64,000 nucleotides of DNA from Undaria pinnatifida (Eukaryota; Sar; Phaeophyceae; Laminariales; Alariaceae), in the NCBI GenBank assembly GCA_012845835.1, contig JABAKD010000011.1, positions 14,012,214-14,076,213 of the forward strand, given 5' to 3'. Shown here in pieces: positions 533-51,200 of this stretch (positions are counted from its first letter, which is position 1; the number at the start of each line of letters is the position of its first letter). A program made the translations under genes and the position numbers. Under the pieces are notes generated by a model. That model was not told where the DNA came from. It made no database searches and saw only the letters and a program-made list of their open reading frames with translations.

Positions 533-657
533 CCTTGAACGATCTCGGTGCAAGTCTTGGCCGCGTATTCTAGTGCAAGGGCTCTCAAGCCATCCCCGTC
601 CTGGTCGATGACGGAATCCCTCGCGCGGTACAGCGCTAGCCTCTGGTCGTTCATCAC
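533..657 (-). CDS. secA: secA exon 16 (last exon in window)
   Basis: It encodes [20 protein letters not shown] and [16 protein letters not shown], continuing FSFDE from exon 15. Acceptor GAGCAG|GTG; donor CAAGG|GTAAGC in phase 2, so the coding sequence continues left of position 1. No further exon is recognisable in 1-532. Confidence 0.9.
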
Positions 658-3600
658 CTGCTCGGTTTGCATCAAGCCGAAAACATCAAAGTCATTGCAA
701 TTCAATTCGATGCAATTCTACTTATAGTTATCTTAATCTTTTCGATTTTTTTATCCGCCGGCGGATGGGGGAAGCTAAAGCTAAAGCTTATCAAGCGAAC
801 CACACTTCCACGTATTTTCACGCGTGTCGATGTAAAACTCTACTGTATTCACAATCGATTTTAGTCCAATGTTCAATTGTCGTTGTGACGTACAAAGTTG
901 ATACAACTTCACTGCAATTCGATCAAAACCAATTACAGCATTCCCATATTATTGTGGCATATTTCGAAGTATAACTTCAACAATAGGATAACCTCCACGG
1001 CTGATCAATCGATCGGTAGTGCAAAACCACACCGCACCCAAACCCGAACAACGCCGCACCACGCCGCGCGGCACCGCACCGCACCACAATACACCGCACC
1101 GCACCGCAATGCATTGCACGGCACCGTACCACACCACGACCACGACGACCACCACGACACTGTACCGCATCGCACTGCATCGCACTGCATCGCACTGCAT
1201 CGCACCGCACCTCATCGAAAGAAAAGACCGTTCGTCGAATGCCTGCGAAGTAGTCCTCCGTCGCTCTCTGTACCTTGTCTAAGGTAGCAGACACCTATCC
1301 ACAATATGCAAGAGGTATGGCAGAACTCGCGTTATGTTTTTAATGATTCACCGCGTCAAAATAACAGCAATAACAAACATGTATTTAACACGGGGGGGGG
1401 TATGTAGTCCTCTGTCGTTTTCTGCACCTTGCCCAAGGTAGCAGACATCTATGCATACTGCACATACAGGCCGTGTGACAGTTGGGGGTGTCAATGAAGG
1501 CTACTCTGGTGACCCGTGCTTCGACAGGCGGTAAGACAAAAAAGCAGCCATACCTCATATCCCACTAATACCTTTTGCAGGAGTCAGGGCCGCGATATAG
1601 TACGTTTCCCCACACCCGTTTGGAACGAATGGTGTTTTAACTACAGCAGTACATAGGAGATGTAGTACAACAGGACCCGCGTTTGTATAAAACAGTTTCA
1701 CAGCATGAAAAGATAGACAATTCAAAATGTGACGTGTGACAACTACAGAGGGAAGGGTGGCGTTGTTTAGACCATAGGGGGGGGGCACGTAGTCCTCCGT
1801 CGCTCTCCGCACCTTGTCCTCCTTCGCTCTCTGCACCTTGCATCAGGTATCGACAGGAGATTCAACAGTAGGATGATGGAAACAAACGACCTCACACTCC
1901 TACAAAGGTTAGAATGAAAAGCAAGCTACCAGGTGGAAATTATGTACGGAAGATTCACACCTCGGACAGACCACGATCTAGATCATATAGATCGCATAGA
2001 TCATATAAATCATACAGATCATACATATCATATATATATCTCATGAATCTAGATCATCTACAGGTCATATACAAGTCATCTACAACATATCCTATAGCTG
2101 TCGTTGTGATGTGATGTTGTGCAGGATCTGTATACGTCGAGTACAGATCCAACCGAGGAAGCATGTGCAAGATGATGCAGGTCGTACGGCTCCCACCGGG
2201 TAACATGAGCTAGACCATACAGATCATACAGATCTTCCATGAAACATCTAGATCATCAAGGTGTGCATCGATGATCTGTCGGGCGTGTGGAAACATTGGA
2301 TTAACTACAAGTGTACCCCCTCAGGGGCACAGACGTGATCCTGTGACAAGGCAGAGGAGGGTACAGCCCACACAGTCGAAAAATGTAAACTATTCAACGA
2401 GGAACGAAATGTGTCAGAAGAGGAGATGAGGAAAATAGGCGGATGTGACATGGATAAGTTTGTTAAAAGTAGATAGCAGCGAGAAAAACGATCGCTATCC
2501 TAGGAGATGGATGGTCGCCACAGACGGCCGAACAGGAAGGGGATAAGATAGGCGATTAGTTTTTTTCATGTTAACCTACTGAGCGCCCAAATGCCGGAGG
2601 TGTCTCTACTAGGCTATTAGGAGCAGGAACGGGGCTCCGTCTCGAAGGGACGCGTCGCCAATGGTCAAAAGACTAAGGCAAGCAACAAACGAGTACGCCC
2701 ACCCTCCAGTCTAGGTCCCGGAACAAACAGTGGGGCGTCGAGCTTTTTTCGGTCTAACCCTGCGCACCTGCTTGTTTTCGATGGGGATGTCGTCGCTGAG
2801 CCGGAAGCTGTCCATGATTTTAGTCACCTGATCCCCGCCGAACACCCTGCTCAAACCAACAAATTGAAAAACGAGCAAACGATTAAGCACACGGATGGGT
2901 AAGCCACCAAGACGATCACGTACAAAACCAATGTGCAACCGTCAATTTAAACCTCCAGTGTAACTGGCAGTGTATCCGCTAGTGAAACTGTCAGCGTAAC
3001 CGTTCGTGTAACCGTCAGTGTACCCGTCAGTGTAACCGTTGGAGCAAACATCAGCGTAACCGTCAGTGTATCCGTCTGTAGAACCGTGAGTGAAATCGCA
3101 AGTGGAACCGCCAGCGCAACCGTCAACGTAACCATCAATGAAACCGTCAATGTAACCGTCAGTGAAACCGTCAAGATAACCGTTAGTGTAACCGTCCGTG
3201 TTACCGTCAGTGCAACCGCCATCAGTGTAACCGTCCGTGTAACCATCAGCGTAACCGTCAGTGTAAACATCCGTGTAACCGTAAAGCGAAACCGTCTAAG
3301 TAACCGGCAGTGTAGCCGGCAGGGTAAGGTCAATTAAAATTTCAAGTGTAACCGTCAGGGCAACCATCAGCGTTACCGTCCGCGTCACCGCCAGTGTAAC
3401 CGTATTTCTGTAACTTTCCACCTGTTACTGTTGTTTTGTAACAATCAGTGTAATATTCCGTGTAAGCGTCAATAAAACCGTTAGTGCAACGGGCATTTAA
3501 ACAGTCCGTGTCACCGTCAGACTACACGGTGGTATACCCGCCAGTGTAACCATCAGTGAAAACATCGGTGTAACCGTCAGTGTAACCCTCAGCATAACCG

Positions 3601-6600
3601 TCAGTGTAACCATCAGCGTAACCGCCAGTGTAACCGTCAGTGTAACCATCAGCGTAATCGCCACTGTAACCGTCAATATAACCGCTAGTGTAACTGGCAG
3701 TGTAATCGTTAATGTAACCACCAGTGTAACTGTCAACGTAACCGTCCGTGCGACCACCGGTATAACCGTCATTGTAACCTCCAATGTATCGATCATTGTA
3801 GACGTATTTTTAACCGTCAATGTCCGTCCGTCTGTCCATGAGTGTAGCCGTGAGTGTAACCTTTACTTTATCCGTGAGCACCCATCAGCGCAACCGCCGG
3901 CGAAACCGTCCGTATAACCGTCAGTGTAACCGTCGTCAGTGTACCTGTCCGCGTAACCGTTAATGTGAAATCGTCGGTGTAACCGTCAGTAACATCGTCT
4001 GCTTAACTGTGAATATGACCACCGGATAACCGTTAGTGTAAGGGTGAGTGTAAAGGGTCATGTAACCGCCAGTATAAAAGGCGGCGTAACCACCAGAGTA
4101 ACTGTCAGTAAAACCGTCACCGTAACCGTCAGCGTATCCGTCAGTGTAACCTTCAGTGCAACCGTCATTGTAGCCGTCATTTCATCTGTCAATGTAACTG
4201 TTTGTCTAACCCTCAGTGTAACCATCAGTGAAAACGTCAGTGTAGCCGTCAGTGTAACCGTCGGTGTAACCGTCAGCGTAACCGCCAATGTAGCGGTCCG
4301 CGTAACCGCCAGTGTAATCGCCCGTATACCCGTCAGTGAAACGGCCAGCGTAACCGTCTGTGCAACCATCGGCGGAACCGTCAGTGTAACCGTCAGGGTA
4401 AACCGCCCGTACAATCGTCAGCGAAATCGTCCGTGTAACCGTCCGCGCAATGGCCAGTGTAACCGTCAGTGTAACCGCGTGTGAAACCGTCAGTGAAACC
4501 GTCGGTGTAACCGTCAGAATACCCATAAGTGAAACCGTCAGCGAATGTGTCAATGAAACCGTCGGCTCATGACACGGTCGGGGTGACACCAACATTTTCT
4601 GGGGCTCTACACTTGACCATCCCTACTGGGGAGTTTGCGATGTACCAACTTTGGTTGGGTAGGAGTTGGGTAGGAAAGCATATAATACTGTTAGTAGTAT
4701 TAAAACCCTCGAACGTCACAATCCAAGGCCAACCCAACCTACGAAAAAATTGGTTGGAAATGCGATTTCTCCTTCCATTTTTTAATTTTCTAAGCTAATT
4801 TTGTCGTGGCTTGGTTGGCTTTGGGTAACGACGTTCGTGGGTTGCAATACACATTGTTCATTGTTTTTTATAACCCAACAGACGTAATTTTCTCGTGGCT
4901 TAGTTGGCCTTGGGCTACGATGTTCGTGGGTTTCAACACATATTTTGCATTTTTTACAACCCAACAGACGTTGGAAAATCGCAAGCGCGCTAATAACTCA
5001 CTCAAAAGTTGACTTCGCATGCGAAACAATGAAAATACCACCCGACGACCAATCCCAAGGCGTGTCAATACGTAATAACAGGTATTACCGAATAGTTCGT
5101 ACAAACAAGTGGCATTTCGACGATATTGGGTTGTTTGCGAACTACCAACTTTGGAAAACATATAATATTACGAATAGTATTGAAACCGTCGAACGTCACA
5201 CACAATCCAAGGCCAACCCAACCCACGAAAAACGGCGGAAAAAAAAAGGTTGAAATATGTTTTCCTACCGTTTGTTTTACTGTCTAACCATTTCTTTTCG
5301 TGGATCGGGTGGCGTTGGGTTACAACGCTCGTTGGTTTGAGTACTGTTTCCAATATCATTTTACACTTCATCCAACCCAACAGAGGTTGGAACTCGCAAA
5401 CACCCTATCGGGTACGGGTATCTTCACGGTTAAGGACCTCCGTCAGACTAAACGATTTCGCCAAAACGTGTTATTCCTATCATAGCACACGTCCGCCAGT
5501 GCACCGTCAGTGCAACCGTGCATCCATCGATGTCCCGCAAGGATCAGGACTCAAGTTTTGGGTTGTCTGAGTTTTTGTTAGATACTGTGTCGTACCTGAA
5601 GATGTCGTCGTCGAGGGAAAGGAAGAAGCGCGTTGCCCCCGGGTCGCCCTGCCTTCCTGCCCTGCCCCTCAGCTGGTTGTCGACGCGGCGGCTCTCGTGC
5701 CTCGACGTGCCCACCACGTAGAGCCCGCCAAGATCGATCACCTGACGCGGCAGAAAAAGTCAACCAACCAACCGACTTATTATGCAAGCAATCAACACAG
5801 CACGCAACAAGGTAAGCACGCAAGTTATACAACCATCAACAACCAAGCAATCAAGCAGTTTACAAAATCAATCAATAAATAAATCAAACAATAAATAAAT
5901 CACCAATCAATCAATATCATTTGAATCAACCAATCAGTCACGCAATGAATCAATACATCAATTAACCGATCAACCAGCCAATCAATCGATCAATCAATCC
6001 ATCAACCAATTAATCAATCAAACAAAAAAACATCCAACCCACCAATCAATAGGTCGGGCAAGATTATATGGAGCGATCTCACTCCATCAGAACGAGAGCG
6101 CTGCCGTTCATTGCTGCTGGGATCAGTCTCCGGGGTAATCTGTTGATGGGAGTTTAGGGTTTGGTACTGTTAATGCTACCGCCACCACTTACCGCTACCG
6201 CTGCCGCCACTTAGCCCTAACCCCACCACCACCACCACTACCTCTACCACCACCACCACCACCGCCACTACAAATACCAACACCAATATCACTACCACCA
6301 CCAACAGCCACCACCACTACCACCACGAACACAACTACCACTACCATTAGCACTACCACAACCACTACCATTATCACGACCACCACCAACCACCGCCAAC
6401 ACCAACACCACCAACACTAACAATAACATCAGCAACACCACCAACAACACCACCAACACCACCACCACCAACACCACCACCACCACTAGCCATTACCGCG
6501 GTGCGTACAGTGGTTCCGCAGGTCATCGCCTCTTGCAAGATATAAAAATGTGTCACTATCTCCGATAGTCACCATAGTTGCTCAACACACAAATGCATAG

Positions 6601-9600
6601 CAGGTGTATATGTGATCCTTCACAACCACTAGCACTACCGCCACCACTACTACTACCACTACTACTACTGCTATTACTGCCACAACTACTCTCCTCACCG
6701 CTACAAACAACCAACAACACAACACCGCCCAACACCACCACTATGACCACGCCCACCTTCTCTTTCTCCTCCGCTAAGCCGTCGGCGAAGCACTTCTTGA
6801 TCACCTGGGCAGCCTCCCTTACGGCGACAACCCCATTCCCTTCCACGGGCCCCGCCTCACAGGCCGCAGAAACCAGCTCCTCCAACGCCTCCCTCCCCAT
6901 CTTCCCTTCCTCGGTTTTGGGGAGGGAAGAGTCTTTGGCGCATTCCGATACTGCCTCTGCCAACGATAAGGACGCCTCCTCGGGGAGGTCGCAAGGGAAA
7001 AACGACTCTCCCACCTGCATGCGGCGGGAGAGAATAACACAATGAACGCAGGCGTTGCACCTCAGCTGAAGCATTATTCTGCGCGATCGCTTCTGCACCA
7101 CGTTTTGATTCCCACGCAAGAGCAGCAGTTTCACCACCACCACCACCACCATCACCCCCCCCAACACAACCACAACAACAACCACAACAACCACAACCAT
7201 CAACATCAACACCTCTAACACCGCCACCACAACCACCATCACCAACACCACCAACACCACTTACACCAGCACAACCCACACCAGCCACAACACCACCAAC
7301 ACCACAACAACGAATTCCACGAACACAACGAAAACCACAACAACTATCACAGCAACCACCACAATCACCAACATCACCACCACCATCACCCCAATCAACA
7401 CCGCCGATACCACCACCGCTACTGTCCCCACAACTACCATCACCACAACCACCACCACCATGAACGTAAAGACCACCACCACACCACATCCACAACACAA
7501 AACAATAGCACCACCAACACAACCACCACCAACACAACCACTACCAACAACAACACCAACAACAACAACAACACCAACAACACTACCACCAACACCATCA
7601 GCACCACCGCCAACACCAACACCAACACCAACACAACACCAACACCAACACCAAACGTGTGGGAATCTAAAAAAACTCTGGTGTCTGCAGGTATAGTATC
7701 CCGGGGTCAGAATATCTACGACGATCGTCACATGAAACGCATCTTCGGTACCACCACCAGACTCCTCCTCCCCAACAAGATCCTTGGCCAGAACACCCCT
7801 CACGCGCACCCACAACAACCACCCCCGTCAGCACCACGAACATACCCGCCGCCATCAGTACTACCACCACCACCAATATCACTACCACTACCGCCACCAC
7901 AACCACCAATCACACCAACACCACCAACACAACCACCACTACAGAAGTGGTCTCTGTATAGTACCGGTATGTGCACTATAGAGGGAAATACCGGCACTCT
8001 AGCAGCAACCGGCACTACTCCGCGTACTGCCTCTACTGGTTGTTTTCTCCAGTGACAAGCGATGTTACAGGCGCTGCGAGCGGGCAACCAGTGCTACTCA
8101 ACCGGCAATGCAAAGGGAAAACTTTATCACCAAACGTACCTTCGGTACGACCGCCAACTCCTCCTCATCAAGAAGCTCCTTCGCCAGGGCGTCCCTAACG
8201 CGAATCCTCGCCATCACCGCGGCATTTCCACCCAACAAGATGTCCGTTCCTCTCCCCGCCATATTTGTCGCGACGGTCACCACACCCAGCCGCCCCGCCT
8301 GCCCCACGATCTCGCTCTCGCGTTCCACCAAGTCTGGGTTAGCGTTAAGCGTCTGGAAGGGGACAAGGGGGGATCGGCCCCGGTATGTTAATGCTATCGC
8401 TAACATGGCCAACCTCTCCCGATTCGACAAGAGCGATGACGGCGACGACGGCGGCGACCGTGTTTTCCCAACGTCGCTGCACTCACGTCACTGCCGAGAC
8501 AATTTACTTGGAATCAGTGGGAGACAGTTTTTGCAGTCGTGCAAAGATTAAAAAACCTATGATACAAGCGTTTGACGCATGCCACAGCGTAAGGGTTCAC
8601 CCACTGCACCCATTGCACCCATTGGCATTGAGGTGCTTCAGTTGAGGAGCTATCTACCTCGCACAAAAACGTTTTCTTGAGAGAGAACGAAAGTGCAACC
8701 GGATGACCAGTCCCATGGCCTAGGAATATAACAACAAATGCACTACAGCACAGTACCGGCATTGTGTGTCCAACGAGGTGTGGTAATTTTCGTGGGGGAA
8801 GAAAGGCAGTACCTCTATCGCAGGACGTGGCATCATTTTACATACATTTTACATGCATTTTACATACATTTTACATACATTTTACATACATTTTACATAC
8901 ATTTTACATACATTTTACATACATTTTACATACATTTTACATACATTTTACATACTTTTTACATACTTTTTGCATACATTTTACATACATTTTACATACA
9001 TTTTACATACATTTTACATACATTCAACTATTGCATCGCCGGGACCCACCCTCCACCTCTGTTAACAACGCTGGACTAGCTCATTGACAACTGTCGACAG
9101 CTGATCGCGTGTACGAGAAAAACGCCGGGCTGTTCATTGACATATTGTACGTTTCCGCGTTATTTCAGGCGGCCACAGCCCAAAGAAAATTCGGGGAAGC
9201 ATCTGAAAATTTCAAACTCACCTCAATCCTGGCATAACACGTGTAAACATAAACACAAAGATGCCTTTATTAGTTGTATGCATATATCATATATAACCGT
9301 GTAGTACCTGGCAAGGCACCCCCCTCTCCTCAAGCTCTTTTGCCGTCTGGTCCGACATCTGAACGTTTGTCGTTCCGATCAGCACCGGGCGTCCGTCTTT
9401 GTGCAGTCTCTCCACCTCCGTAAGCATGGCGGCGTTGGCCCCCACCCGGTTGCGGAAAACCACGTCAGGGTAGTCCCTCCTCGCGATTGGTAGGGCCGTC
9501 GGTATCTGCATCAGGGTATCGGTGTCGTCGGTAGTGCTGCTGTTGGTGCTACTATAACCGACTCATTCGAAATAATGTAACCGTCAGCGACGTCTACGAA

Positions 9601-12600
9601 CCGTCACAAAATCTACCCGCACGCGTGTGCATAGGGACACACGTGTCCCGGGCCCACCGAGAGCCCACCAGGCTATACGTGAAGGGGCTAGAGTTAGGGT
9701 TTACTTTCGAGCAGTCGAAACCTCGTGTAAGGGCTTCAAAGTCAGTTGCATTTCAAACATTTTGTCGAAGCTGGGGCAAAGCCTATTATGCTCTATAGCC
9801 CTCCAAAAGTCTACGAAGAACAAAGCCCTCGCCTGAATGACTTGCAGACCGTAGGTAGAGCCGAGCTCGTTAGCATCAGTGATCGCGGTACCCGTCATGC
9901 CGCACAGTTTGGGAAAGCTCCGGAACAGGGCCTGGTAGGTCACCTGCGCCATGACCTGACTCTGCTTCGACACAGTAATGCCTTCGCAGAGAAAAAAACG
10001 CCACATCGTGGAAAACAGGGGACAGGGGAAGAGTGGGGCGGAGGGGGGTGGGACACAACGTCATAATAGCAACGCCTTCACAAAAAAAAAAGCAAAAAAC
10101 GTCACAATGGGGAAAACAGTGGACCGCGGTGAACCGCGGGGGAGGGGCTACATAAGTTGCAACTCACGTAAATGCCGGACTGCTAGCGCACGCCAATCTT
10201 CAATACGCTTGAAAAATGTGTTTCGTAACTACTTAATACATCAGACAGTATACCTGAGACGAAATGACTTCAACTCCTACTGGGAAGGTAGGCGTGCAGG
10301 AAACGGCGGTTGGCAGTAGGGAATGAGCGTTGCCAGCAGAAGCTCGGCGTTTTTCAACGGGTATTCAACGTTGGCGACAGATAATGAGCTTTGCCAGTAG
10401 CCGCTAAGCTACGGCTGCCGCGCAGGGCGTGACCGTTGTTGGACTATTTATTGTACGGTTTCATAAACCGTTTCAATATGCCGTCTCAGGTATCATTTAC
10501 TCTTAAATGTACCGTTTCACGTACCGTGTCATGCGCCGTTTCATGTACCGATTAGTGTAGCGTTTCATACACCGTTTCATGTCCCGTTTCATGTACCATT
10601 TTATGCACCGTTTTATGCACCGTTTCACGTCTCGCCTTCTTTGGCCTCGATGCACTGGTGTAGACCGTCGCTGTATCTCCTCCCCTCCAGCACTCTGCCA
10701 CTGAAGGTGTCAACGATAAGCACGTCGTTGTCGCGAACGATGTACTCCTACGCGACACACAAGGAGGAGTGAAACACGTTACAGCGTCACAATGCTTCGG
10801 ACACAAAACGAGTAGAAAACACGCATACCGTTAGGTACAGCGGTATAGACTTACTTGCCGTTGTCTTTTTCCTGATCGGGCTCGATTGGTACATCCCTGG
10901 TCTCCCAGGAACTCCCATTTGAACACCGCCTCCTTCAATTACTTGCGGAACGGTTTGGCTTTTATTTGATTTCTTCCTTCACCTTTGTTTTCGTTTTCGT
11001 TTTTTCAGACGTTTCCTGATTTCTCAACTGCTTCCTTTAAATTTGATTTCTGCCAACTCGATTGCGGACTGTTTTTTTATTTTTTCTTTACGCTTTACCT
11101 TTTTGCTTTTTCTTTCTTTTTTGTAAGCTGAATACAAAATATCATTTTTTTTTTAGGTCTTTTATATTTGAGTTTTTTCGTTTGCCGAAGTTGAATCAAG
11201 TCTTAGCTGAGCTCAGCTTGGCTTATCAGCGCAGTGCCGTGCGGTGCCGTGCGGCGCCGTGCCCTGCCGTGCGATACTGTGCGGTGCTGTGCCGTGCTGC
11301 GTGGTGTGCTGCTCTTACTTTTTCGCGCATGCCAGGTATCATTCAAAGCACCATACCAGGTATCGGTACACCAAGTTTGTACGTACTACATGGGTGAATC
11401 ACAAAAAATGCACTACCAGCAGCAATAATAGCTCAGCAGCGCGGCGCCATGCGGTGCCGTGCCCTGCCCTGCGGTGCTGTACCGTACTGCACCGTGCTAC
11501 GCTGTGCTTTCTGCCGTACATACAGTAGTACTAGGTGTGATGCGAAGCACTAGGTACCAGGTACCGGTATGTACTTGTATACAAGTATTCGTCTTTTTTG
11601 CTTCCTTCATTGATTGTCCTCTCTCGGTCCCCTTCATGTTTTTCGCTTATATTTTCGCAAATTACCAGATACACCGATACTGCCGATCAGAACGTGACGT
11701 AACCAGCAAACACACAGCACGGCACAGGGCAATGAGATCTGCACAATTAGCATTATAAAACCGCTCGTTGCACCAAATCATAAGTCTCTTCTTTCTGCCC
11801 CCTTCACATTTACTTGTGTTCTTCCTTGCGCGAGCGCAGCGAGCGGCGTCAGCCACCCGCGGAGCGGTGCCCTTGTCAAGTATATACACTCCTTGACGAC
11901 ACAAAAGGAGACGACAGCCATGCCATTACAGTGGAGCGACCACAGCAAGCAAGGAGTCTCAGGTAGGCGAGGCGGAGACACATACCGAGAGCGGTGCGTT
12001 TATGACTTCGTCCAGCTTCGACAAAATGGTTCAGACATACTCGATTCTACACCCTCTCACCGACACGAACCCAAGCCCAACAGCAGTTTCCGCCTTTTTA
12101 CAACTGGAAACATTATCCCAAACGTATTCCCAGTCGTTTTCCCCCAAAAGGATTGGCGCAGTTCTAAGAGGGGTGATTGTGGAACCAGGTCCCCTCCCCC
12201 TAGATAGTACCGCCTCATTATACACAACTCCAAGGTTGCCATGGGTCTCTCATTCCGCTCCGAGTAGACCCAAGGTACCGACCCACCTCCGTGTATCCTC
12301 CTCACCACAATCACACGAGGAAGAACTGGCTACAGGGACACCGCCCCGCCTAATCCTCGCTTCATCAGAACACCGTCGCGTACTCTACTACACGGCACAT
12401 GGAGCCGCACCTTGTCCTTGGTGAAGAGTTCCTTAGCCTTGACCGAGTTGATGATGTACGGCGCCCACGGGTCTCGAGGGTCGAAAATCGACTTCCCCAA
12501 GATGCGATCGCAGTCGTCGTAGCCTTTATCGGTGAGGACGACATTCTGATCCTTTTCCGAAACCTAAAAACAAAAACAAAAAAGGATCATTGCTAGGGTC

Positions 12601-13981
12601 GTGAGCTGGCTGACTATTCTAATAGTAAGTTGTCGACTAGATATTCTAATAGCAGCAATAGTAGTAGTAGTGAGTTGGGAGTTATTCCACGGTACGGATA
12701 GCACTTTTTTGGAGCAAAAGGTCTGTGACCCTCTGATTGGTCTCTGATTGATTGAGCTGTTGAGCTCAAGAGTGGCACTATCGACTAGAAGTACAAGTAT
12801 GCATATGATAATTTACAGTAATACTTGTTTAGGACTATTAATGGAACTATTTGCGTTAGGAATAGCGCATGGGAATGTTGGTCGGGTTGCGAGAACGAAA
12901 GTCCTCGAAGTCATGTTTCGGGTGATGATGGATGACGGATGATGATGGATGATGGATGATGGTGACGATGTTGATATTGAGCCAGCTCCTCATGTTAGGA
13001 GCTCAGCAAATTCTTAGAATCTGCTGCACCCCTCCTAGCGTGGGACTACTCTCCGATGGTTGGATGGGTATTACCAGGGCTCGAGGTGATCACGTATGGC
13101 GCTCACGGGGGTCGAGGGTAAAAAATCGATTTCCCCAAGACGCGATCGCAGTCGTGGTGACCTTTGTCGGTCAGGCTTACATTCTAATCCTTCTCCGACA
13201 CCTTCAACAAAACAAAAGAAATACTGGCGCGCGTACAAGCTTTCTCTTCCGGATGTGGTTGGCTTTGAAATCCGGGGTTGTCGCAAGTGCAAAAGGGGGA
13301 AAAAACCCTTGTAAAAACTAGAGGCCAAACAATTAGCCACCGGGCAGGTGACCGGGCAAGTAAAAACGAGTATTATTGACCAATGCGACCACCTCAAACA
13401 AGATTACAGCTTGTCTGCAAGGTTTTCCTTGGGGATAGGGTTGGCTTGAAACCCCGTGGGGGCGCGAGATGAAAGGGGGGGACCAAAACTCTTGTAAACA
13501 CTAGAGGGAAAAAAACCCTCAAGTAACCTTGCAAGTAGCATCGACCATCGACCAGCCCAAACGAGCTTATAGCTTAGTCTGTTGTTCTGGTGTCAAAATA
13601 AATTTGCCGATGTGAATTTGTGCACACGATTATAAGCGTGTGCCTTTGTTGTACAGGTAGTTTTCCCTCTATAGTGCGGGTATGTGCGCTATAGAGGGAA
13701 ATACCGGGAATATGGCGGTAACCGGCACTACACCGCAGACTGCCACTGCTGTTCGTTTCCATCTGTGCCAAACGGTGTCACAGGCACCTCAGCGGGAAAC
13801 TGGCACTGCTCAAGCGGCGTTATTCGTAGAGGGGGCACTATTTCGTATCCCCAACGAATATGTGGTGGTGTTTTTATTGCGGGCGATCGACTGCAAAACC
13901 CATCAGTTAGTTCACTTTACGTCTGCGGCTGTCGTTATGCGTCTTTCCGAAAATGACGAAGACTGGGGCCGTGGCTAACTA

Positions 13982-14019
<38 letters not shown>

Positions 14020-17000
14020 ATTTATTATATAATACGCTAAGGATGGTCGTGAAGGTGGTCGTGACGTTTTGGATCTTTGAAAAATATCTTGGTTAAAACA
14101 CCCCCCCCAAAAAAGCGGCGACTCCCGAGCTCCACTCGGCCTCAGGCGGCCTCGCGATGCCGCCACGTCCCATCCGCACAGCAGCACTACGACATGCCGG
14201 CGAAAGAACCGCCGTCGGTGCCCCACCTCGGCGAGGGGGGAGCGTGGAAATCGCCCTCCCGGGGACGGCTCGCTTGCCCCCCCCCCGCTTTTTCTTCGTC
14301 GCTGCCTGCTAATTGTTTTTTTTGAACTCCCAACCATATTGTGAGGAAGACTAAAAATGTTGAACAACAAATGCTACTCGAGTTATTGCTTTTTGGCCAC
14401 TTGGGCCATGGACACAGCCATGGACACGAGACCACAAGCGCGCCTGCGTCAACAGCAATCACACAACACCAGGTTCAAACACAGCAGCGTCCAGCCGTCG
14501 CCGCTCGCCGTGCGCAGAATTGGCAAAGCGAGCGCTTTTGGCTTGGCCTAACCAGCCCGAGAGCATTGTAACCAACAAATCGGCTGCTGCTCGCCTGTCA
14601 GGTGTATTGCTCTAGGTACCGCTGCATTGCTGCACTGCTGTACTGGGTAGGTTCGTGGGTGCATGGTGGGTGGTGTTCTGCTGTGCTGTACGTACTGCTG
14701 CACTGCTGTTCTGATGTACGTACTGCTGCACTGCTGTTCTGCTGTATGTAGTAAAGGTTTGGTCGGTGGATGGGTGAAGCGTGCACTGCGTCGTCCGTGG
14801 TGGGTGGGTGGACCGTTCTGTTCGTGGGAGTCTTTTTTTTGCTGTTTCCTGTTTCATAAGAACCAACCAACTAACTACGCCCCGCGTACCAGGTGTATAC
14901 TGCTGTACGTACTGCTGCACAGCTGTTCTGATGTACGGACTGCTGCACTGCTGTTCTGCTGCGCTGTACGTACTGCTGCACTGCTGTTCTGATGTACGTA
15001 CTGCTGCACTGCTGTTCTGCTGTATGTAGTAAAGGTTTGGTCGGTGGGTGGGTGGAGGGTGCACTGCGTCGTCCGTGGTGGGTGGGTGGACCGTTCTGTA
15101 CGTGGGAGTCTTTTTTTTGCTGTTTCCTAATTCATAAGAACCAACCAACTAACTGCGCCCCGCGTACCAGGTGTATACTACTGTACGTACTGCTGCACGG
15201 CTGTTCTGATGTACGGACTGCTGCACTGCTGTTCTGCTGTATGTAGTAAAGGTTTGGTCGGTGGGTGGGTGGAGGGTGCACTGCGTCGTCCGTGGTGGGT
15301 GGGTGGGCCGTTCTGTACGTGGGAGTTTTTTTGCGTCCTGTGGGAGATGAACCCTTTTTTTTGTTTCTACAATTTAATACCGGCCTCCCACTGGTGCTTG
15401 GGAGTACCAACGTCCCCACTGCTGCACTCCTCTGTCCTTTACTACCGTACGTACTACTGCTGCCGTGTTATCATTTTTGTTTTGCAAAACTTACATACAG
15501 AGGATGATACCTTTACTAACGTACGTACGGCGGCATTGTCGTACTGCCCTGTTATTATTTTGTTATTTTGGTACTTAATACAGAGGATACAGCACCAATT
15601 TGTTTTTGTCCGCCATACCGGCCGGCAACTGGCATATTTCGGGGGTACCACTAGTAGTAAATAATAAGCCACCGACTAGTTTTTAGTTGGCTAGGTATTA
15701 CAGCTACCTTACTGCTCTAAAAAAAATCTACGCAACTTTACTTTGTACCATGCGGAAGGTGCTGTGGTGGCATTGCATTCTCCAGGTGCTGCGGTGGCAT
15801 TGCATCCTCCACACCTTTAAGATAAGCTAGTCTAATTTACAAAACTGCCTGATTTATGCCCTATTATTATTACGAATAACCACCCTCCGTATTACTTGCA
15901 TACGGTAAAAATCGCCGAGTTCTGCGTCCTTGCACCTAACTGGCGCATTTATGGTTCCACGAGGGGCGCGTATTCTTAAGTACTAAGTCGATTAGAGATG
16001 TTTTGGCCAAAACTAGGTAATGTGCTCCCAAAAAGAGGCACTGAACCCCTCCCGTTGCCGTTTTGCGCTCACGGTGTAGTGCAGCCCCTTCTCGAGAACG
16101 CCTGCGATTTTCCACGAGGTGGCGAATTTTTGTGCGGGGGCATCGACGCTTCTGGAAATGATCAGGGGCGTCCTAGCTTCGTCGATGAGAATGGAGTCGG
16201 CTTCGTCGACCAGGCAGAAGTAGAAGTCCTTCGCTTGCACCGCTCCTGAGGACGATAGGGATACACGTTGATTCCATTGGATAGAGATAACGATTCTTAG
16301 ACACGGTAGGCACGTGATAGCAGGATTGGCAGAAAGGGATCGACAGAGAGGGAAGAGGGGGGGGGGGATGATGAGAATGGAATCGGTTGAGGCCACGAGG
16401 CAGAAGTAGAATTTCTTCGCTTGCACCGCTCCCGAGCACGGCAGAGGTGACCGTCGATAGGACAGGGATACATGGAACCAACCAACAGAATTTGATATAT
16501 GCAAAACGTGAAACGGCGGCGCTTCGACGGTCTTTGAAGCTGTCCCTGCGCTCGTCGAAAGAGGATAACTTTAACGAAGTTCGCGTCCGTTGCCGATAAC
16601 CAAAACAATTACGAGCTGCCGGGGATCGGCAGGAGTAGCATCCGTGCAATATCCAGGTCAACGGTATATTCACGCGTCAATATCCATATATTGATCCAAG
16701 CCAACCACATATTCACGTATCCAACGGTCCTCAAGACTCACCATCATTGGTGACCGTTAGGTGGCCCCGGAGGTAATCGAAATCGGTATCCACGCAGCAA
16801 TACCCAACCCAGCGGTATATCCAAGTAGCAACATCAATGTGGCAACTCCAAGACAACGATATATCCAAACAGCAAGATCCAACGGGCCTCAAGACTCACC
16901 GTCTTTGGTGACCGTTAGGTGGTCCCGGAGGTAGTCGAATCCGAGCTCCTGATTAGTGGCGTATGTAACGTCCGCGGAGTACGCCTGCTTCCTCTGCGCT

Positions 17001-20000
17001 TCGGGCATGTTCGACTGGATCAGTCCCACGCTCAGTCCCAAAAAACGGTGAACCTGCGTATTTCATAAACATGTTTCAAGTATACGTCAGCTGTGAGTTC
17101 GACCAGTTGAGTAGTCGATACTCATCTTTGCTAGCTGAGTGTCGGCCGCACGTGTTTACATGCTCATCCCTCTCGTTAAGGATATAAATAACCTTAGGTA
17201 TATGCACAAGAAGTTACGCCTCCGCGCTATTTCCTCGGGCTGTAATTCACTTAAAAGCGCTTCAAAAGTGCTTTGAAACCGTCACCGAAAAGCCCATCAT
17301 ATGCCAGCAGCTGTTATCAACGTCACCGAACAGGCCGATGATGGTGTCAGCAGCTGCCAACGGGCAGGCTGTACGCCAGGCAGCTGTGCCCATTGCGTGT
17401 ATGACACGCCATATGCCTGTATGCATGGCTGTTGCTGATGACGCTGCTGGTGGTGTTGTTATATCTATATCTATTGGTAACGCACGAGTATCGCGGTCTC
17501 CCTCTTTCTGTTGCTGCTGCTGCTGCATGCTGCTGCCGTTGCTATTGCGATGCTACTTAATGCTGCTGCTGGTGTTGTCTCTGTTACTATTGAGGCCAGC
17601 TTCTCTTTGGTGGTGCTGGTACAAGTCACTATTCACCCCTGTGTGTCCTGGTGGACGTGCGTGTACCCCTCCGTGCAGCAGGCGTGTTGTCCCTGTTGCT
17701 ACTGTTGTTGTCTACTACTGTTATCCTTATTATGCTGCTGTTGTTGGTGCTGTTGCTGTGACGCTGCTGGGGGTCGTTGTCTATGTTGCTACCGCCGCCA
17801 TCCTCTCTGCCGTTGCAGCTGCTATAGGCATAACTCAAAATTTGCTTCCGCCATTGATGCTGCACCCTCACCTTACGTGTGTGTTGTGTGTTGTGTTCAA
17901 TTTAAATCGATTATTTCTACCGAACGTCACCAGTAGAACACCCAGCTCTTCATCCTAGAGAAATACAAGCCATGTGGTCACATAATGTGAAACAGAGAAA
18001 CCACATCAAATGTTTACGTGTGCCCCTAATTTTGGCGGTCTGCCCATCGGTCACTAAAAATAAGTATTGCCATGCATATCGCCAACAGCAGCAGCTTGCA
18101 GATACGAGTATCGACTATTCAACTGGTCGAACTCACAGTTGAGGTATTTGAAATAGTTTTACAAAACACGCACTCTGGTACATTATACCGGTATCAAATG
18201 CATTCATTCCTGGCCTTTTTTTGTTGTATATGAGTATCGACCATTCAACTGGTCGAGCTCACAGTTGAGGTGTCTGAAACAATTTTACAAAACACGCACT
18301 CTGGTACATCATACCGGTATCATACGCATTCATTCCTGGCCTTTTTAGGTTGTAAGAGTATAAATCTTGCGTCACTCGCTTTGCTTCGTCCCGTCCTAGG
18401 AGTTCCACCTACACGCCGAAGGAATTATCTTGCATTGCGTATTCATTAAAAGATTAAAGAACAAACCTCAGCTGCGAGATCGAGGACATCGTAGAAATTC
18501 ATATTTGTAAGCTGCGTGTGATACTGCGATCGCGCAGGTAAAATACCGGCACGTTACTGACGAAATTTCCATTGTTGTTGCGGTCAGAACCGCACGGACG
18601 TTTAGCGGGTCAAACCACTTGGAACTGTGGCGGGATAATTTTAGCTGAATTATACGAGAACATAATTGAAGCGCGACACAGTATGTACCCACGAAAACTA
18701 TTTTTTATAACCATACGGAACGCAACACATGGCTCTTCATGCGCCGGCACCGACGAGACCTCATCTAATACGGGGAACCACGTAGTAACTCTTCAGTTTC
18801 CGATGCACTCATTACAGCAATACCGACGAAAAACATGACCGACTGAAAAAAAAAAACGACGTAAAGCAATAACCGACGGAAAGCATTACCGACAGAAAGT
18901 ACTACCAACGGAAGTCAGTACCGACGAGTGTTCCAACGGAAAAGCATCACCGACGGAATCGTTATCGATCGATTTCACTACCGACGGAAGACATGCGGAC
19001 ATACGGAGGGGAATATATATCGACGGAAAGCATTACCGACGGATACACTGCCCTCCCGGAAGGTAATCCTTCGCCGAGAGGGAACAATGACAGCCCTTCC
19101 TGTGACTCTAGTATACATCCCACACCAACTAGATGCCGTTAACACTCCTGTTGACCTACCAGTACGTGCTTGCGGTGGGATAAATAATGGAATTACACCG
19201 CACCTGTCCCATGGTTTCGGCGTCCCTTCTTGCCAGGTAGTCGTTGGCGGTAACGACCAGCACGGTGCCTTTACCGGCTAGAGCGTTGAGGTAGCAGGGC
19301 AGCGTTGCCACGAGCGTCTTTCCCTCTCCGGTGGCCATTTCCGCGAGCTTTCCCTCATGCAGGGCTAGCCCGCCCAAAAGCTAAAAACGCCCAGTTTCGT
19401 GATCAATTCAAGCGGAAAATGCAGACGAGGTGTAGACGAAATTATGCGCAGAAGCAAGGACACGACGTTGATTTTCGTGCTGAGGGTATATTCGGCGAGT
19501 TTACTACGTAACACTTTTGTCGGTTTGAGCACTGCACTCTCGCTGTGGGGCCAAAAATACGTAGAAATAGACTACGACCATTTTCGAAGTTGGAACCGCG
19601 ATAAAAAAACTCTTGTTTTGGCCAACATAAAATTCTTCAAGGGGGGCAAGGTGAGCCCTACACAATTCTCAGTGCAGAAACAAATAGTTTTTACTGTTTC
19701 GCGTAAACACCGAGCAGAAAGAGCGCAATTATAGTGACGCGCCGCACAAAGGAAAAGAGTAGGAGCAGCACCTGAACATCGTAGTGACGGAGTTCCAAGA
19801 CCCTCCAAGCGGCCTCTCGAACCACGGCAAACGCTTCTTCTAACACGTCGTCAAAATCCCCTCCCGCCGAAAGCCGATCGCGGAACTCCTGCGTTTTCGC
19901 CCTGTCCAAACGGAAACGAGAATGCGAACTGATACTTGTACTGTACATGTTAGCAGGCGAGACGATGAGCAGGAGCAATGTCACCTTAAGTTGGCCAGCT

Positions 20001-22996: not shown

Positions 22997-42075
<19,079 letters not shown>

Positions 42076-43965: not shown

Positions 43966-43998
<33 letters not shown>

Positions 43999-44759
43999 TC
44001 ACATTAACTGTTTTGTTGTTGTTCTCACATTAACTGTTTGGGGGTAAAATATTACGAGGCAATCCGGTCCGTCCAAGAGAGAAGCTTGCTTGCTTTTGCT
44101 CCTGCTGCCTGCACACACAAACACTGCACGCTTCATCCGCACCCAAGGTATACAAGTATGCGTATATGCGTCACTCGGTGACAGCCTCAGACCTTCCGGA
44201 ATGCTGTGGGGGTACCTACCTGCGTACCTCGAATTCCTAAACCGAGCGCGCGAAACAATCCAAACAGCCGAACAAATCGAACTGCAACAACAGCAGTGAT
44301 CCCTCTCTGTAATGCCGATTTAGTAGTGCTGGTTACCCGATATAGTGCCCGTTATTTCGCTGGAACAGTTGAAATACTGTTAGGAATTGTGCCTGTTTCC
44401 TTTATAATGCTGGTAATTCCTGTTGGAACATACCAAGTCTGTTGTCCTTCTCCGCAGATTTCATGAAAACATGCACTGAAGGCGTGTCTGCGATGTCGGG
44501 AAATCGGGGCCGCCCAATCTCATTTGAGAGCCGGTACAACGGCAAACTTCACTTCACTTGTACTTTTTTTTTGGGGGCTGGATTTTGGTGTTGGCTGTGT
44601 GTGCTGCACTAAATAATCCCAATCCAATGACGTCTGCTTGAAGGTGCAGTGGGAAGCTAGCATCCGCAGCTAGAGATACCCCGGGTGAAGCAAGCACCCC
44701 TCGACAGGCGCCGGGGCTATCCCTGCCCTGTCTGGCACGGTGTTGTCCTCCGAGTTGGC
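42076..44759. other. Intergenic region between WDR68 and the third gene
   Basis: Probably holds the WDR68 3' untranslated region, a CAGCTG-family fragment (43420-43590), a (TTG)n tract at 43969-43996 and the promoter of the third gene. An antisense open frame at 42120-42536 (138 codons) resembles no family I know and is left unassigned. Confidence 0.5.
43420..43590. mobile_element. CAGCTG-family element, copy 3 (forward, partial)
   Basis: Starts ATTATAAAAAATGAAAATAC and CACTCCAGCTGTGAGATCGA and stops after ACAACTACAGTGTAGCTATC. Between WDR68 and the third gene. Confidence 0.8.
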
Positions 44760-45292
44760 ATGGAATTTGCCGCACCGGTGTCTCAGAGACACGAGTTATT
44801 CTCCAAGCAGCAATTTGAAGCAAGGGACGCAGCGGAGTTAGTAGGGGCAAAGAGCAGTGCGGCCGGATCATCGAGACACGTCGTTGCTAGTGCTGCTGCT
44901 GCTTCCGAGGTAGCAGCTGAGAGCAGCTCGAAGAGCAGCACCCCCAAGGCGATGAAGGACGATATGCTGGACTCTGTGCCGGGGTCGGCGGTGGGAGGTT
45001 GGCAAGAGCAGCAACAGCAACAGCAGCAGCAACAGCAGAAGCAGCAGCAGCAACAACAACCGCAGCAGCAGCAGCAGCAACAGGCGGGCGGCGGGCGAGC
45101 CGGGGGAGATCAGGCGGCTATAGCGCCGCTAGAGACTAGCCAACTCGATCCCAGAGCCCCTGTGCGGAAGGGCAAATGGACCCCGGAGGAGGAAGTGTAC
45201 ACCACCAAGATTATCAACGACTTCAACAAAGGGCTGCTCCCGCTCGCCCCGGGAACGACCCTCCGGTCATACCTAAGCGAGAAGTTGAACTG
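44760..45292 (+). CDS. Core-protein gene exon A: N-terminus, poly-Gln and KGKWTPEEE
   Basis: The ATG at 44760 opens MEFAAPVSQRHELFSKQQFE, followed by an Ala/Ser-rich linker, a Gln tract of about 30 residues (45008-45080) broken by Lys and Pro, a Gly-rich stretch and the conserved RKGKWTPEEEVYTTKIINDF and LRSYLSEKLN. Donor AACTG|GTGAGG, phase 2. An upstream in-frame Met at 44685 is the alternative start. Confidence 0.82.
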
Positions 45293-48200
45293 GTGAGGGG
45301 AAGGGAGGGGGGGCACTGTTATGACAGCTAGGCTTGATGGTACGTAGCGTATAGGCGGGATGATGGCAATTATGTGGGTTATGCTGCAACCGAACACTTT
45401 CCTCCCGACTCTCGGAATGGGCTCTGCTTCCTCAATCAGGGACATGGGTGGTGCTAGGCGACGTGGGGGTCTTTGGGGGAACACGGTGTTGCGTGCGCAC
45501 GTCCGCGCAGTGATGACCTTCAACATGCTTGTTTGCTTGGTTTGCCCACAACGCGGATCCATGTTTGAAGCTTGCATCCTCACGAGTGCAGCAGCAGCAG
45601 CAGCACTGGCAGCAGCAGCTGCAGCTGTAGTTCTGCGCTCTCTTTTGTTGCTGCAACGTTGTACTGAGACCTGTGCGTGTTTGATCTTGATCTTCAGCGT
45701 GGTTTTACTATAATGGCCGTCCGACGTCGAATCGTGCACAGCAGGCTGTCCTGTTCTGCTGTCCTGTCGTGCCTGCCCCCTCCTTTTCCCCCCCCTGGAG
45801 GATCTACGAGCAGCCTGGGAGCGGATCTCGCGCACCACGATGCATACATACATCAGTACCTGGTACATCTTTTGCTCCGCATTGAAGCTCCAATACAATA
45901 CTAAAGCTGCAGTAGTTTCAAGTGCAACATCATACAAGTATACAAACACCATGAACTTTGAAAACCTCATTGCAGCCAAGTCAACCGCAGCCCCCCCCAC
46001 CACAGCCACCAAAACGGGTCCTAGTTGAACCCCCGCCAAAAACCCGAACCAACCACACACACACACCCCGCCAACCCCCCCTCCCGCCTCCTTCTCCTAG
46101 TGACCCCATGCGTATCACGAAGAAGTTTGCTGGCGCTTCGTGCATTGGCAAGCGCGTGTTCATGCCTGTGGAGCGCACGCCTGAAAACCTCATTGAGACC
46201 CACCGCAGCCGGCGCGAGCTGGAAGAAATGGAGCGGAAGTTCCACATCCGCCTTGAAAGCATGCGTCCCGGGGCCGCCCGAGCGAACGCCGCTGGAGCAT
46301 CCTCTTCAAAGCCGGGGGGGGGGTTAGGTGGATCGTTAGCCCCGGGGGCGAGTCCAAAGACTAGGAGGTCTACGGCTGCGCAGTCGGCTGGAGCCGGTGG
46401 GGGCGGGGGGGGCGGGGGAACTGCGCCAGCTGCAGCTTCTGCTTCTGCTGCTGCCGCTGTTGCGGGCGCTGTTTCTGTTGCCGCCGCGAGCGGAAGCAGT
46501 GCTGGAGTTGGAGGTGGGGGAGGCGGGGGGGGGAGGGGCAGGGGGGGGCAATCGACGAGGCGGGGGCGACATAGGGGTTCATCCACGTGGGGTTTCCGCT
46601 AGCAGCGGTGGCGGCGGCGGTGGTGGTGGTGGAGGCGGGATGGGGGGGGGTAGAACGACCTCCAGGTCACCGTCTCCGGGAGCTCACGGGCCTCACTCGG
46701 CTTGCGACGACTCTGCGCCTCATCCGGAGGGGTCGCCGGGTCGGAGGAGTTGCTGGGAGCGGGACGAGGAAGGGTATGGGCAGTATGACCCTATGGATCA
46801 GAGTCCATCTGGAGTAGACTCGGATGGTTCCTCCGAGAGCCCCTCGCGCCACACGGCGCCATACTCTGGGGTTGGCGGTGGTGGTGGCGGTGGCGGTGGG
46901 TATGGAGGCGGTGGGTACGGTGGGGGGGGGGGGGGGCGGGGGTGGAGGAAGGGGGGGGCACGAGCACGTGACGGGTTACTCGAGGTGTCAATGTGATAGT
47001 TGCAGCGGGCATAGTTCATTTGGAGCTGCTCACGGCAGGCGGGGCCGAGGCGGGGGCGGTGGTGGCGGGGGGGGGCAATACCGTCCCCACCAACACCATC
47101 AGCAGCAGGGGCAAGGGGGAGGGCGTGAAGGATACCATCGGCACGGGGGTGGTGTCCGGCGCGCCCACAACTTTCAGTTCGGGCAGGGGGAGCATGGGGG
47201 GGGGGTAGGGGCAGCCTCTGGCGGCGACCCTGACCAGGGAGGCCATCACGATGAGATGGAAAGCGGGGGGGGGGGGAGGAGGCGGTGGCGGAGCAGCGGG
47301 GGGGGGGGGGGGCGAGTGTCCCCGATGTCGGGAGCTGGGGTCGCTCGAGCTGGGGCTTGGGGGGGGCTCGGGGGCCCGCCTGGGGGGGCGATGAGCAGCG
47401 CAGCGCAGTTAGGCGCGCCGCGGACGCTTCCGCCCGCGGCGATGGCGGCCGCTGCTGTCATTAGGGAGGCGGGGGGGGGGGGGGGGGGGGGGCAGCGGTA
47501 GTGGGGCCCGGTCTCCTACCTGGCCTTTGCCGCGAGTTATTCCGGAAGGGTCGGAGATTTCTGACCAGGATGCAGGGGGTTTGCTTCTAGGCTTTTTCCG
47601 ATCGGTGCACGAGAAGGTCCAAACTGCGGCGGACGAGCTCGGAGAGGTGAGTGAGGGGAGGGGGTATATTAGCATCCCCTAGTTTCGAACGTTTTTTTAA
47701 TTACAACCCGTCATGTTCAATTGGGTAAGAAAAAAAAAAGATGGATTATAGATAAACAAACACCCCCTTGTGTAGTTTTTTCCCCCAATCAAACCCGTCC
47801 TTTTCATTGGGGGTGAGAAGGAAAAATGAATGAAGGATGAAACACCCCCTTGTTTAGAATGTCTTTTGAATTGAAACCCGTCAATTTCAAATAGAGGGCG
47901 GCTTGGGCGGGAGAGGAGGGTTGGAAAGAAGAATTGGTGTTCACCTCCTTGTTAAGAATGCTTTTCAAATTTCAACCCGTCTGATTCAAATGGAGAGGTG
48001 AGTGGAGGAGGAAGAGAAAGAGGAATAGTTTATCAAGCACATGAACGAATGGGCACCTCCTTGTTTGGATGCGTTTCAAATTGAACCCCTTCAAGTTTGA
48101 ATGGGCGGAGTGGACGCGTGGGGAGCCAATGGGAGGAAGAAAAGGAAACAATGTAACACATGAACGCATGGACACCCCTTGTTTAGATTTATTTCATCTG

Positions 48201-51200
48201 GCACTCGTCAAATGTAAATGGGTGGAGTGGACGCTTGTGAGAGTGCAGAAGGAAGATGAAGGATGGATGGACACATCGACCACCCCTTGTTTATAATGTT
48301 TCTTACGTTGAAACCCGTCATATTTTTGAATGGATGGAGTGGACGCTTGGGGAGGGAGAATGGAAGGAGGAAGGAAAGAAGGATGGGTGTACATGAACAC
48401 ACGAAAAGCCCCTTGTTTATTATGCTTTTCCAAGTTGAAACCCGTCAAATTTAAATGGCGTGGACGCTTCGGGAGGTGAGAGGAGGAAGGAGGAAACGAA
48501 AGGCAATATTTCGATAGGGGGGCCTAGGAAAAATATAAATAAATAAAGGAGAGAAATTTCCAAGGCTTGCGCAGGCATTTTCGTTACGGGTTGCCGTCAG
48601 CCATCGAGCTTTGCGACTTGCAACTAGTTTTGCTCCATAAAGTGCCCTCTGCTGCGGTGCCACTGCGAGCGCCACAGTTGGAACCCCTCCGTGTAAGCAA
48701 AGGTGTGGGTTGGCGGTCTACATGATAGTTGTGTCCCGTCGAGGCCTTGTTAGACTTAATATACTGGTTTTAGTATTTATTGAAGCGGTTCTCGGCGGTT
48801 GTCCGTAACTAGTCAGGAGTGCCGTCAAACGACATATGTGCGTGTACATATGTACAGTTGTTCCAACCGAACGCTGTTGTCAAGAGCTATCGCGGGTACG
48901 ATATATCTCCCATCAACTCGATTCGATGTTGCGTGTTAGATAGTAACGAAAAGGGCTCGAAAGCATCCTGCCAAGAGGCCGAAGGATAATGCGCACGCAC
49001 GACGTGCTACGTCGTCGTCCCTTTGAAAGTATTCGCCTCTACAGCCCAGGCACCAGTACGAATCGTAAATGGTCTTTGTGCAGCCTCGGGGTCATCAGAC
49101 GCAGACTCGTTATTACATGATTACATCCAACAGCGCGCGGCTTGGCGCTACTCGTATTACTGACCGCGAGGGCTGTTGCTGCGCTGCTGCTGCCATGCGC
49201 GGCGGTCAATCAGACGAACCACTCTTGGCGTAAGTATACGGACACTGGTGTTGTCTTGATAACGAAGAATAAAACGGCCATTATGTCGTTATATTGTTTT
49301 ATTCCCGCCAGTGTCATACCCCATCCATCCAATCAGTGTCAGTCGATCGCGTGTTGCTTTTGGTAGTTTTTTGTGATCCGTGATTGGTGGAATTTGACGA
49401 GATTCTAGGCCCCAATACTTCGAAATTCCCCCCAAGTACGAGTAGCTCAAGAAGAATGGGTGGACACCCCCTTGTTTAGCATGCTTTTCCAATTGAACAT
49501 CGTCAAATTCGAGTCGAAGACGCCTGAAGCCTTGTAAAGTTCCCCGTGGTACAGTAGAGACTCCTCTGTAGTGCCGGTATGTGCGCTATAGAGGGAAATA
49601 CAGGCACTAACTATACCGGCAACCGGCACTACTCCAAATACTGACACTGCTGGTTATTCCCACTTGTGCAAACGATGTCACAGGCACTAGCGGGCAGTCA
49701 GCATTACTCAACCGGCACCTCTACTGCTGCTCAATGTAATTTTGATGTTGTACCCGAAGCTGGTATATATTTATACCCCCCCCCCCCCCCCCCCCCCCCC
49801 CGCCCCCAATAATATACTGGTGCCAAAACCGTCAGATTTATCCCCTCGAAAGGATTTATAGCTTACATGCACAAATTGCCCCTTTCCCCCCCCCCCCCCC
49901 CGCCCCCCTCCAAACCCGCTCGCTTTTGATCAAAACCAAGCCCCCCTTTCCCTTCACAGCTGTCAGATTTTGTCCCCCTCAGAAACGGGTTTTATAGTTT
50001 CCGCGCACAGACTGACTAAAATCATCCTGTTGACCCTGATAGCTACACTGTAGTTGTAAGGGGAGTCGCCGACCTATATCCTTAATGAGGACACACAACT
50101 CGTAATGCGCGCGATCGGAGTATCACACACAGCTTGCAAAGATGAGTTTCGACGAAATCTTCGATCTCACAGCTGGAGTGTATTTTAATTTTTATAATAT
50201 TTATACGAACGTTTTTTTTTGTTTGTGTGGTTACGACTGCAGTATTCATTCAACGCAGCTCCAGACGGTCAAGTCTAGACTATGGCAGTATTATGGTGTT
50301 TAAGCTACTAATCTACAAGAGGGTCCGTCGGGATAAAGCATGCTGGATTGTCCCTCCCCCTCCCCCTCCCCCTCCCCCTCCCCCTCCCCCTCCCCCTCCC
50401 GCCATACGGAGATATTTTTGTAAACAGTACGGGCACGGAAACATTTGGAATGTGATATAGTTGACTTCCTCATTTGTAAGGTGTCGACGGCTGGTACACA
50501 TTTTGTCGTAAGTATACATATTTGCATAGTTGACCTGGAAACATCCATACTGGTCATGCCTATTAACAAGAATGATACCAGGTATATGTGTCAAAATGAG
50601 CGGTGGGTGCATCGCAGCTTTCAAAAATGAGTATCGACCCTGATGTTTTCGAACTCACAGCGGACAGCTGACGTATTTATAATATGTTCATACGTTTATA
50701 CTACACTACGTAACCCACAAGTGCCGGTACGTTGATAAGTCAGTAAATGGTCGATTGATAGTGACGTATTTAAAAGTAAAATATAGCAACGCTACGAGTA
50801 TGTTACCCACGGGTGCCGGTATGTTACTAGTCAAGCATCGAGTAAGTCAGTACATGCTCTATATATAGACTACTATACTTCGTTGACTACAGCGGCAGCA
50901 GCAGTCTTAACATGCAAGTATTGTATTACGCAGAGTATAATCTGTATAATAGTGCGTACTAAGATACGCTAGATTTATCACGAGTATTGCTGTGGATTTG
51001 TACGAGCAGGGCTGTGGGTTGGCTGCAACTCACGGCTATTTGATACCTGGTAGGTTTTTGGTGGGCTGGCGGAGCGAAAGCCCGCTATTAATATTTATTA
51101 ATATTAATTGCTGACGTAGTCTTTCAATACCTGGTAATTATCAAGTCTTTCTTTATAAACACAACACCACAACACCATATTCGTGGAGCCACAAGCGCGC

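Follow-up and report, generated by a model that had tools for sequence, protein, structure and literature searches.

In a stretch of 64,000 nucleotides from the brown alga Undaria pinnatifida (assembly GCA_012845835.1, contig JABAKD010000011.1, positions 14,012,214 to 14,076,213, hereafter the window), edges of exons in two adjacent genes, secA and WDR68/DCAF7, are found again as partial, decayed copies within the neighbouring introns. The copies are products of local direct duplication in which the orientation is kept, the exon-intron junction is crossed and the inner copy decays, and duplications of the same kind are present wholly inside introns. Very probably these are local direct duplications in non-coding DNA that straddle exon edges and whose copies then decay, without the junctions themselves being targeted.

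The copies were identified with a probe of 60 nt of exon sequence at each edge, aligned to the adjacent intron for all 22 introns of secA and WDR68, a total of 44 sides. A clear same-strand copy was found at seven of the 44 edges with scores of 38-75, and the remaining 37 edges scored 12-22. In the controls, the probes reached at most 26 when shuffled 100 times each, the opposite strand of the same intron yielded no more than 20 and non-adjacent introns no more than 26. The seven copied edges are the donors of secA exons 5 and 11, the acceptors of secA exons 6, 7 and 15, the donor of WDR68 exon 3 and the acceptor of WDR68 exon 4. Alignment of whole exons to both neighbouring introns yielded the identical seven matches, with all other exon-intron pairs at 22 or below and antisense scores at 23 or below. 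All seven copies start or stop at most 2 nt from the junction, for which the chance with random exon fragments is about 4e-8 (a rough product), and all seven extend past the junction into some intron flank. This flank is well covered at secA exons 5, 6 and 15 and at WDR68 exons 3 and 4, and is short at exon 7 (16 nt) and exon 11 (8 nt).

All seven copies lie on the strand of their original, at shifts of approximately 128-640 bp. The four acceptor-side copies are placed upstream and the three donor-side copies downstream, in agreement with the initial annotation of the window, as is the range of exon-side identity among the copies of 75-90%, which bears out its statement that they differ in age. 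The splice dinucleotide is retained in four of the seven junction families and lost in three (secA exons 6 and 11, WDR68 exon 3). Note that no new intron is needed for either protein, as the copies sit within introns bounded by exon ends that orthologues support. The same annotation had named nine copied junctions, two of which turned out to involve intron sequence only. At the acceptor of secA exon 9, the exon probe scored 14 against shuffles of up to 20 and no exon copy was found, but intron bases from about -42 to -8 before the acceptor are copied at 10091-10124 with a score of 38. In the third gene of the window, a Myb-like gene, the exon probe at the inferred donor of exon B (47646) scored 15 and exon sequence was not found copied; the donor is followed on the plus strand by sequence (47647-48495) that contains a 119-bp array, and intron bases +27 to +56 match downstream sequence with a score of 30, a value without a shuffle baseline. 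Two other edges of this gene, whose probes were shifted from the edge by one or two bases, scored 16 and 14, and nothing was found there.

In secA, which is encoded on the minus strand and whose exons are numbered here as in the initial annotation, exon 5 (16900-17053) has its working donor ACG/GTGAGT after 16900, the slash marking the junction. The duplicated segment of 143 bp (16797-16939) includes 40 nt of the exon and recurs almost head to tail at 16646-16781, where GTGAGT is retained. The acceptor of exon 6 (16073-16245, working site before 16245) is copied at 16370-16470 from an original at 16184-16289, and here AG has become GG. Downstream of exon 11 (8140-8352, working donor after 8140), a copy of 8132-8237 with 8 nt on the intron side lies at 7735-7842 within a GGT-rich stretch and has lost the GT. 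Exon 15 (1211-1294, working acceptor before 1294) is accompanied by a copy of 1250-1323 at 1404-1481 that retains the AG, and by a second, partial copy at 1789-1818 that is identical to 1250-1279 at 28 of 30 positions. For exon 7 (12411-12563), a copy of the entire exon had been proposed. A decayed copy is indeed present at 13082-13217, offset by 638 bp from the original, but it extends over the first 120 of 153 nt only, together with 16 aligned intron nucleotides; it contains two in-frame stops and retains the AG. Two further duplications in this gene have no exon part: a clean tandem duplication of 126 bp (18102-18354, minus strand, 90.6%) that is wholly intronic and represents the same process away from junctions, and one of 278 bp (14671-15332, minus strand) wholly within an intron of 3.5 kb.

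Copies that are not contiguous with their original, such as the one of exon 7 at a distance of 638 bp, and the extra copy of exon 15, which consists of exon sequence only, might also be explained by reverse-transcribed or otherwise templated exon fragments that were inserted into introns. The seven main copies, however, all run on into the intron of their own junction, with the same orientation and in the adjacent intron, and no exon-exon join was seen among them, which makes such an origin highly improbable.

In WDR68, encoded on the plus strand, exon 3 (28881-28954) has its working donor AAT/GTGAGG after 28954, and the donor region (original 28902-29012) is copied within a local array at 29119-29231, with GT changed to AT. 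Exon 4 (31943-32056, working acceptor ACTGTCAG/AAC) is the final unit of an array in which nine acceptors have a common core, the working one and eight upstream of it, arranged in two blocks approximately 1.5 kb apart. In the proximal block (31473-31854), decoy exons start at 31559, 31688, 31754 and 31815, and in the distal block (29996-30304) at 30021, 30152, 30210 and 30271. The AG is intact in all eight decoys, and two of them (7.6 and 7.7) equal the working acceptor (7.6) when scored with a small matrix that has this acceptor among its sites; with it left out of the matrix, the working acceptor scores 4.7. Six of the eight decoys were recovered with probes that did not contain the core, derived from the working acceptor and from five decoys already known, and all six have CAG. 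A copy lacking the core was not found among these six sites, which are too few and not independent. A peak of conservation at the decoy acceptors was also considered and is not claimed, as the sites had been picked by the core motif itself and the result is biased.

These arrays raise the question whether the copies might be selected alternative or regulatory splice sites, i.e. decoy acceptors or poison exons, rather than debris. The eight intact AG dinucleotides at WDR68 exon 4, the two decoys that match the working acceptor in the matrix that includes it, the six CAG sites from probes without the core and the GTGAGT retained in the exon 5 copy are all in line with this possibility. Nevertheless, the splice dinucleotide was lost in three of seven families, that is 43% against 31% expected at a divergence of 17%, the exon copies carry replacements and stops, the apparent conservation peak is biased by the core-based choice of sites, and the copies of an array are not independent. 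We therefore consider a regulatory role for the copies quite improbable.

At four of the seven junctions, the decay itself is unequal between the two sides. Pooled over secA exons 5, 6 and 15 and WDR68 exon 3, four junctions that were selected after the alignments had been seen, the exon parts of original and copy differ at 29 of 200 positions (14.5%) and the intron parts at 60 of 219 (27.4%), corresponding to a corrected ratio of intron to exon divergence of 2.12 in the pool and of 1.9-2.7 for single junctions (Fisher P 0.0013). A ratio of about two is predicted if, after a single duplication, only one of the two exon copies drifts, but both intron copies do. In five exon pairs that align without gaps we counted 24 replacement and 17 silent codon differences, in addition to the two stops in the copy of exon 7; exon 11, where an indel shifts the frame, and WDR68 exon 3 were left out of this count. 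Together with the inclusion of the edge and some intron flank in all seven copies, the divergence ratio at the four junctions, the replacements and the stops lend good support to the earlier proposal of tandem duplication across the junction, with selection retaining the outermost copy. The divergence and the stops also bear on the concern that the copies are an assembly artefact arising from unresolved haplotypes or repeated reads. Such duplicates would be near-identical, but the copies are 10-25% off their exons, one of them contains stops, and exon and intron divergence differ about two-fold at the four junctions, so that an artefact is scarcely credible.

Whether junctions are special was assessed by placing the copied edges among all local duplications. 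Outside six masked arrays, and disregarding low-complexity pairs, the window contains 20 direct duplication loci with copies at most 1 kb apart, compared to 2 inverted ones. Nine of the direct loci are wholly intronic, six touch a junction and five lie outside secA and WDR68, one of the latter after the donor of Myb-like exon B. Their density is 0.243 per kb of intron versus 0.211 per kb outside, and the intron value rises to about 0.31 per kb once the six masked arrays are subtracted, which amount to approximately 7.7 kb and all fall within the two genes. Among 60-mers, 111 of 473 from introns have a direct copy, versus 16 of 207 from the region 48.6-64 kb. Introns had been proposed to grow by tandem duplication across their own edges; the crossing of junctions and the retention of the outermost copy are well supported, but growth specific to edges is not, with nine of the 15 gene loci purely intronic.

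A stronger form of that proposal holds that intron growth is driven by the junctions, with duplications arising or being retained preferentially at exon edges and thereby building arrays of decoys. The eight decoys at WDR68 exon 4 would fit such a process, as would the raw excess of junction-touching loci and the frequency of copied edges relative to array-masked intron points, both detailed below. Against it stand the nine of 15 loci in both genes that lie away from junctions and the intron 60-mers adjoining the junctions, of which one in 40 has an edge-including copy and four in 40 have any copy (four of the 44 such probes were dropped as low in complexity). Relative to unmasked intron points, 328 of 3204 of which (10.2%) have an edge-including copy, the seven copied edges in 44 are not unusual (P 0.16). 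The excess moreover disappears when exon conservation is allowed for. In a simulation in which the exon side was mutated once more by the copy's own amount of change, about 3.0 of the six loci remained visible (about 3.4 of the seven copies, of 44 edges), versus 1.7-2.5 expected (P 0.23-0.47). According to this model, the junction excess would exist because conserved exons keep their copies recognisable for longer. We thus consider growth driven by the junctions unlikely, and slightly less likely still is the variant in which exon edges attract or retain duplications, introns swallow their own splice sites and some arrays, such as the one at WDR68 exon 4, serve as decoys that tune splicing. 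The junctions were probably hit as bystanders, although a modest true excess is allowed for, since the correction is a model.

A number of points weigh against the interpretation of untargeted duplication followed by decay. Without correction, six of 15 gene loci touch a junction, with 1.65-2.54 expected by random placement (simulated P 0.003-0.03), and seven copied edges of 44 exceed the 5.0% (132 of 2647) obtained for random intron points with arrays masked (P 0.006), the points in both the masked and the unmasked set being spaced by 15 bp and hence not independent. The exon-drift correction considers substitutions only. The list of loci leaves out low-complexity pairs and the six arrays, so that the exon 11 case drops out of it. 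Inverted copies do exist, with 18 of 473 intron 60-mers having one, against the 111 with a direct copy. The partial copy of exon 15 at 1789-1818 begins 15 nt within the exon and stops short of the junction. A strict head-to-tail arrangement is lacking for most copies; exon 5, with a gap of 15 bp, and the WDR68 exon 4 array come close to it, but unmatched sequence lies between the other copies. The four junctions that yield the divergence ratio are a choice made with the alignments at hand, and the ratio is absent elsewhere: at exon 7 the exon side is 82% identical and the short intron side matches at 14 of 16 positions, at exon 11 both sides are at 75% with 8 nt of intron, and in the WDR68 exon 4 array the exon parts reach 78-85% and the intron parts 81-85%. 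For the array, equal similarity on both sides might be what is expected if it kept duplicating or homogenising. Finally, the scan extends over one window and two genes.

Untargeted duplication would account for the observations in the following way. The non-coding DNA of the gene region would keep acquiring local direct duplications, each shifted by some 80-640 bp, possibly by replication slippage, by end-joining with fill-in or by unequal exchange. If such a duplication takes in an exon edge, the transcript would continue to work provided that the outermost copy stays the splice site; a copied donor would then land downstream of the working donor and a copied acceptor upstream of the working acceptor. 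The exon would stay under selection while its copy drifts within the intron. Tolerance of the additional sites may derive from the recognition of short exons in long introns across the exon, whereby the site nearest to its partner site would win, and an added upstream acceptor or downstream donor, which would lengthen the exon, would lose to the original. Junction-crossing events would be conspicuous since a conserved exon should keep its copy recognisable for about double the time of a pair that is wholly intronic.

Tandem duplication within genes was reportedly found to be a common event by Gao and Lynch in 2009, under the term of internal gene duplication. The present cases resemble it in being tandem duplications within a gene, but differ in that the copies are partial and decayed and do not form new exons, the copy of exon 7 even containing stops. 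In the potato RdRp gene, a tandem genomic duplication is described that crosses an intron-exon boundary and leaves formerly exonic sequence intronic (PMC4974935). As presented in that report, it takes in the 3' portion of an intron together with the 5' portion of the exon that follows and copies the splicing signals, as is the case here, but a new intron was created there, whereas in U. pinnatifida existing introns have merely become longer, and this at seven exon edges in two genes. That introns can originate from tandem duplication is an established model backed by in vivo evidence (Hellsten; reviewed in PMC3443670). In the outline given by that review, duplication of a segment inside a gene supplies duplicate splice sites, which is the common element, but it is an exonic segment that is duplicated and an intron that arises there de novo. 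For Ectocarpus, tandem repeats are reported to be relatively evenly spread over site classes, with introns that are long for the genome size (PMC12477816); unlike the repeats as reported there, some of the duplicated units described here take in exon edges. In the literature searched, mostly titles and the opening parts of abstracts, no paper offers duplication across junctions as a general way for introns to lengthen. Given the potato case, the route of intron growth proposed in the initial annotation is not entirely without precedent. The secA and WDR68 case belongs to a known kind of duplication, and what is notable is how many examples two neighbouring genes contain.

In the underlying gene models, exon ends were set by comparison to orthologous proteins, using tblastn and a small search for splice sites. 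On the minus strand, secA extends from approximately 21.8 kb down to at least position 532 of the window, and the last approximately 130 residues of its orthologue have no match within the window. Its concatenated query matches an Ectocarpus siliculosus protein at 81% and a eukprot protein at 85%. For intron 1, the two sides are defined by an approximate exon 1 and by the start codon taken as the edge of exon 2. WDR68 occupies 22997-42072 on the plus strand, with a query that matches a eukprot protein of 339 residues at 84%, and it is followed by the Myb-like gene; 47% of the query for the latter is covered by a match at 92% to a protein of Ectocarpus sp. 13. The mean intron length is 1261 bp in secA (n=15, the first approximate) and 2580 bp in WDR68 (n=7), compared to published means of 704 bp in E. 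siliculosus and 1203 bp in S. japonica (PMC6507550). RNA families above the gathering threshold and tRNAs were not found in the window. In secA, GC donors seem to be used in three of 14 modelled introns, after exons 2 (20391, CAG/GCAAGT), 8 (10636, AAG/GCGAGA) and 9 (9833, CAG/GCGAGG), a high share for a single gene.

In WDR68, two successive introns contain a similar stretch of 48 bp (83%) at 36389-36436 and 38026-38072, approximately 75-95 bp before the acceptors of exons 6 and 7, and the last intron holds a TTG microsatellite of about 1 kb (40639-41650). WDR68 and the Myb-like gene adjoin each other (22997-47646), and the Ectocarpus sp. 13 protein P0241 looks like the two joined together, which suggests that the gene order is conserved and that the two were merged in one gene model. 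In Myb-like exon B (46101-47646), the frame of the conserved domain hits a stop at about 46600, but further on this same frame encodes the motif DQDAGGLLLGFF, resembling P0243; the cause may be an intron hidden in the exon or base errors within G-rich repeats. Similar units of 12 bp (GTGTAACCGTCA) and 14 bp (TAACCGTCGATCTG), with TAACCGTC common to both, make up two large minisatellites that lie in different genes, at 2933-4541 and 24099-25607. Inverted arms of approximately 87 bp (95%) that are 609 bp apart delimit what looks like a small terminal-inverted-repeat element at 53899-54593, and the segment 54123-54585 has a relative of 83% at 56913-57347.

Exon edges of this kind act as fossil recorders, in that a decaying copy dates its duplication mainly by one branch. 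As the exon is conserved, copies of exon edges should remain readable for about double the time of ordinary intron repeats, and they would offer a direct means to date and count the events by which introns lengthen. They also provide naturally duplicated splice sites with which to study the choice of the spliceosome among near-identical acceptors; intron 3 of WDR68 has nine of these, including the working one. With their long introns, brown algae would be well suited to a survey of exon edges.

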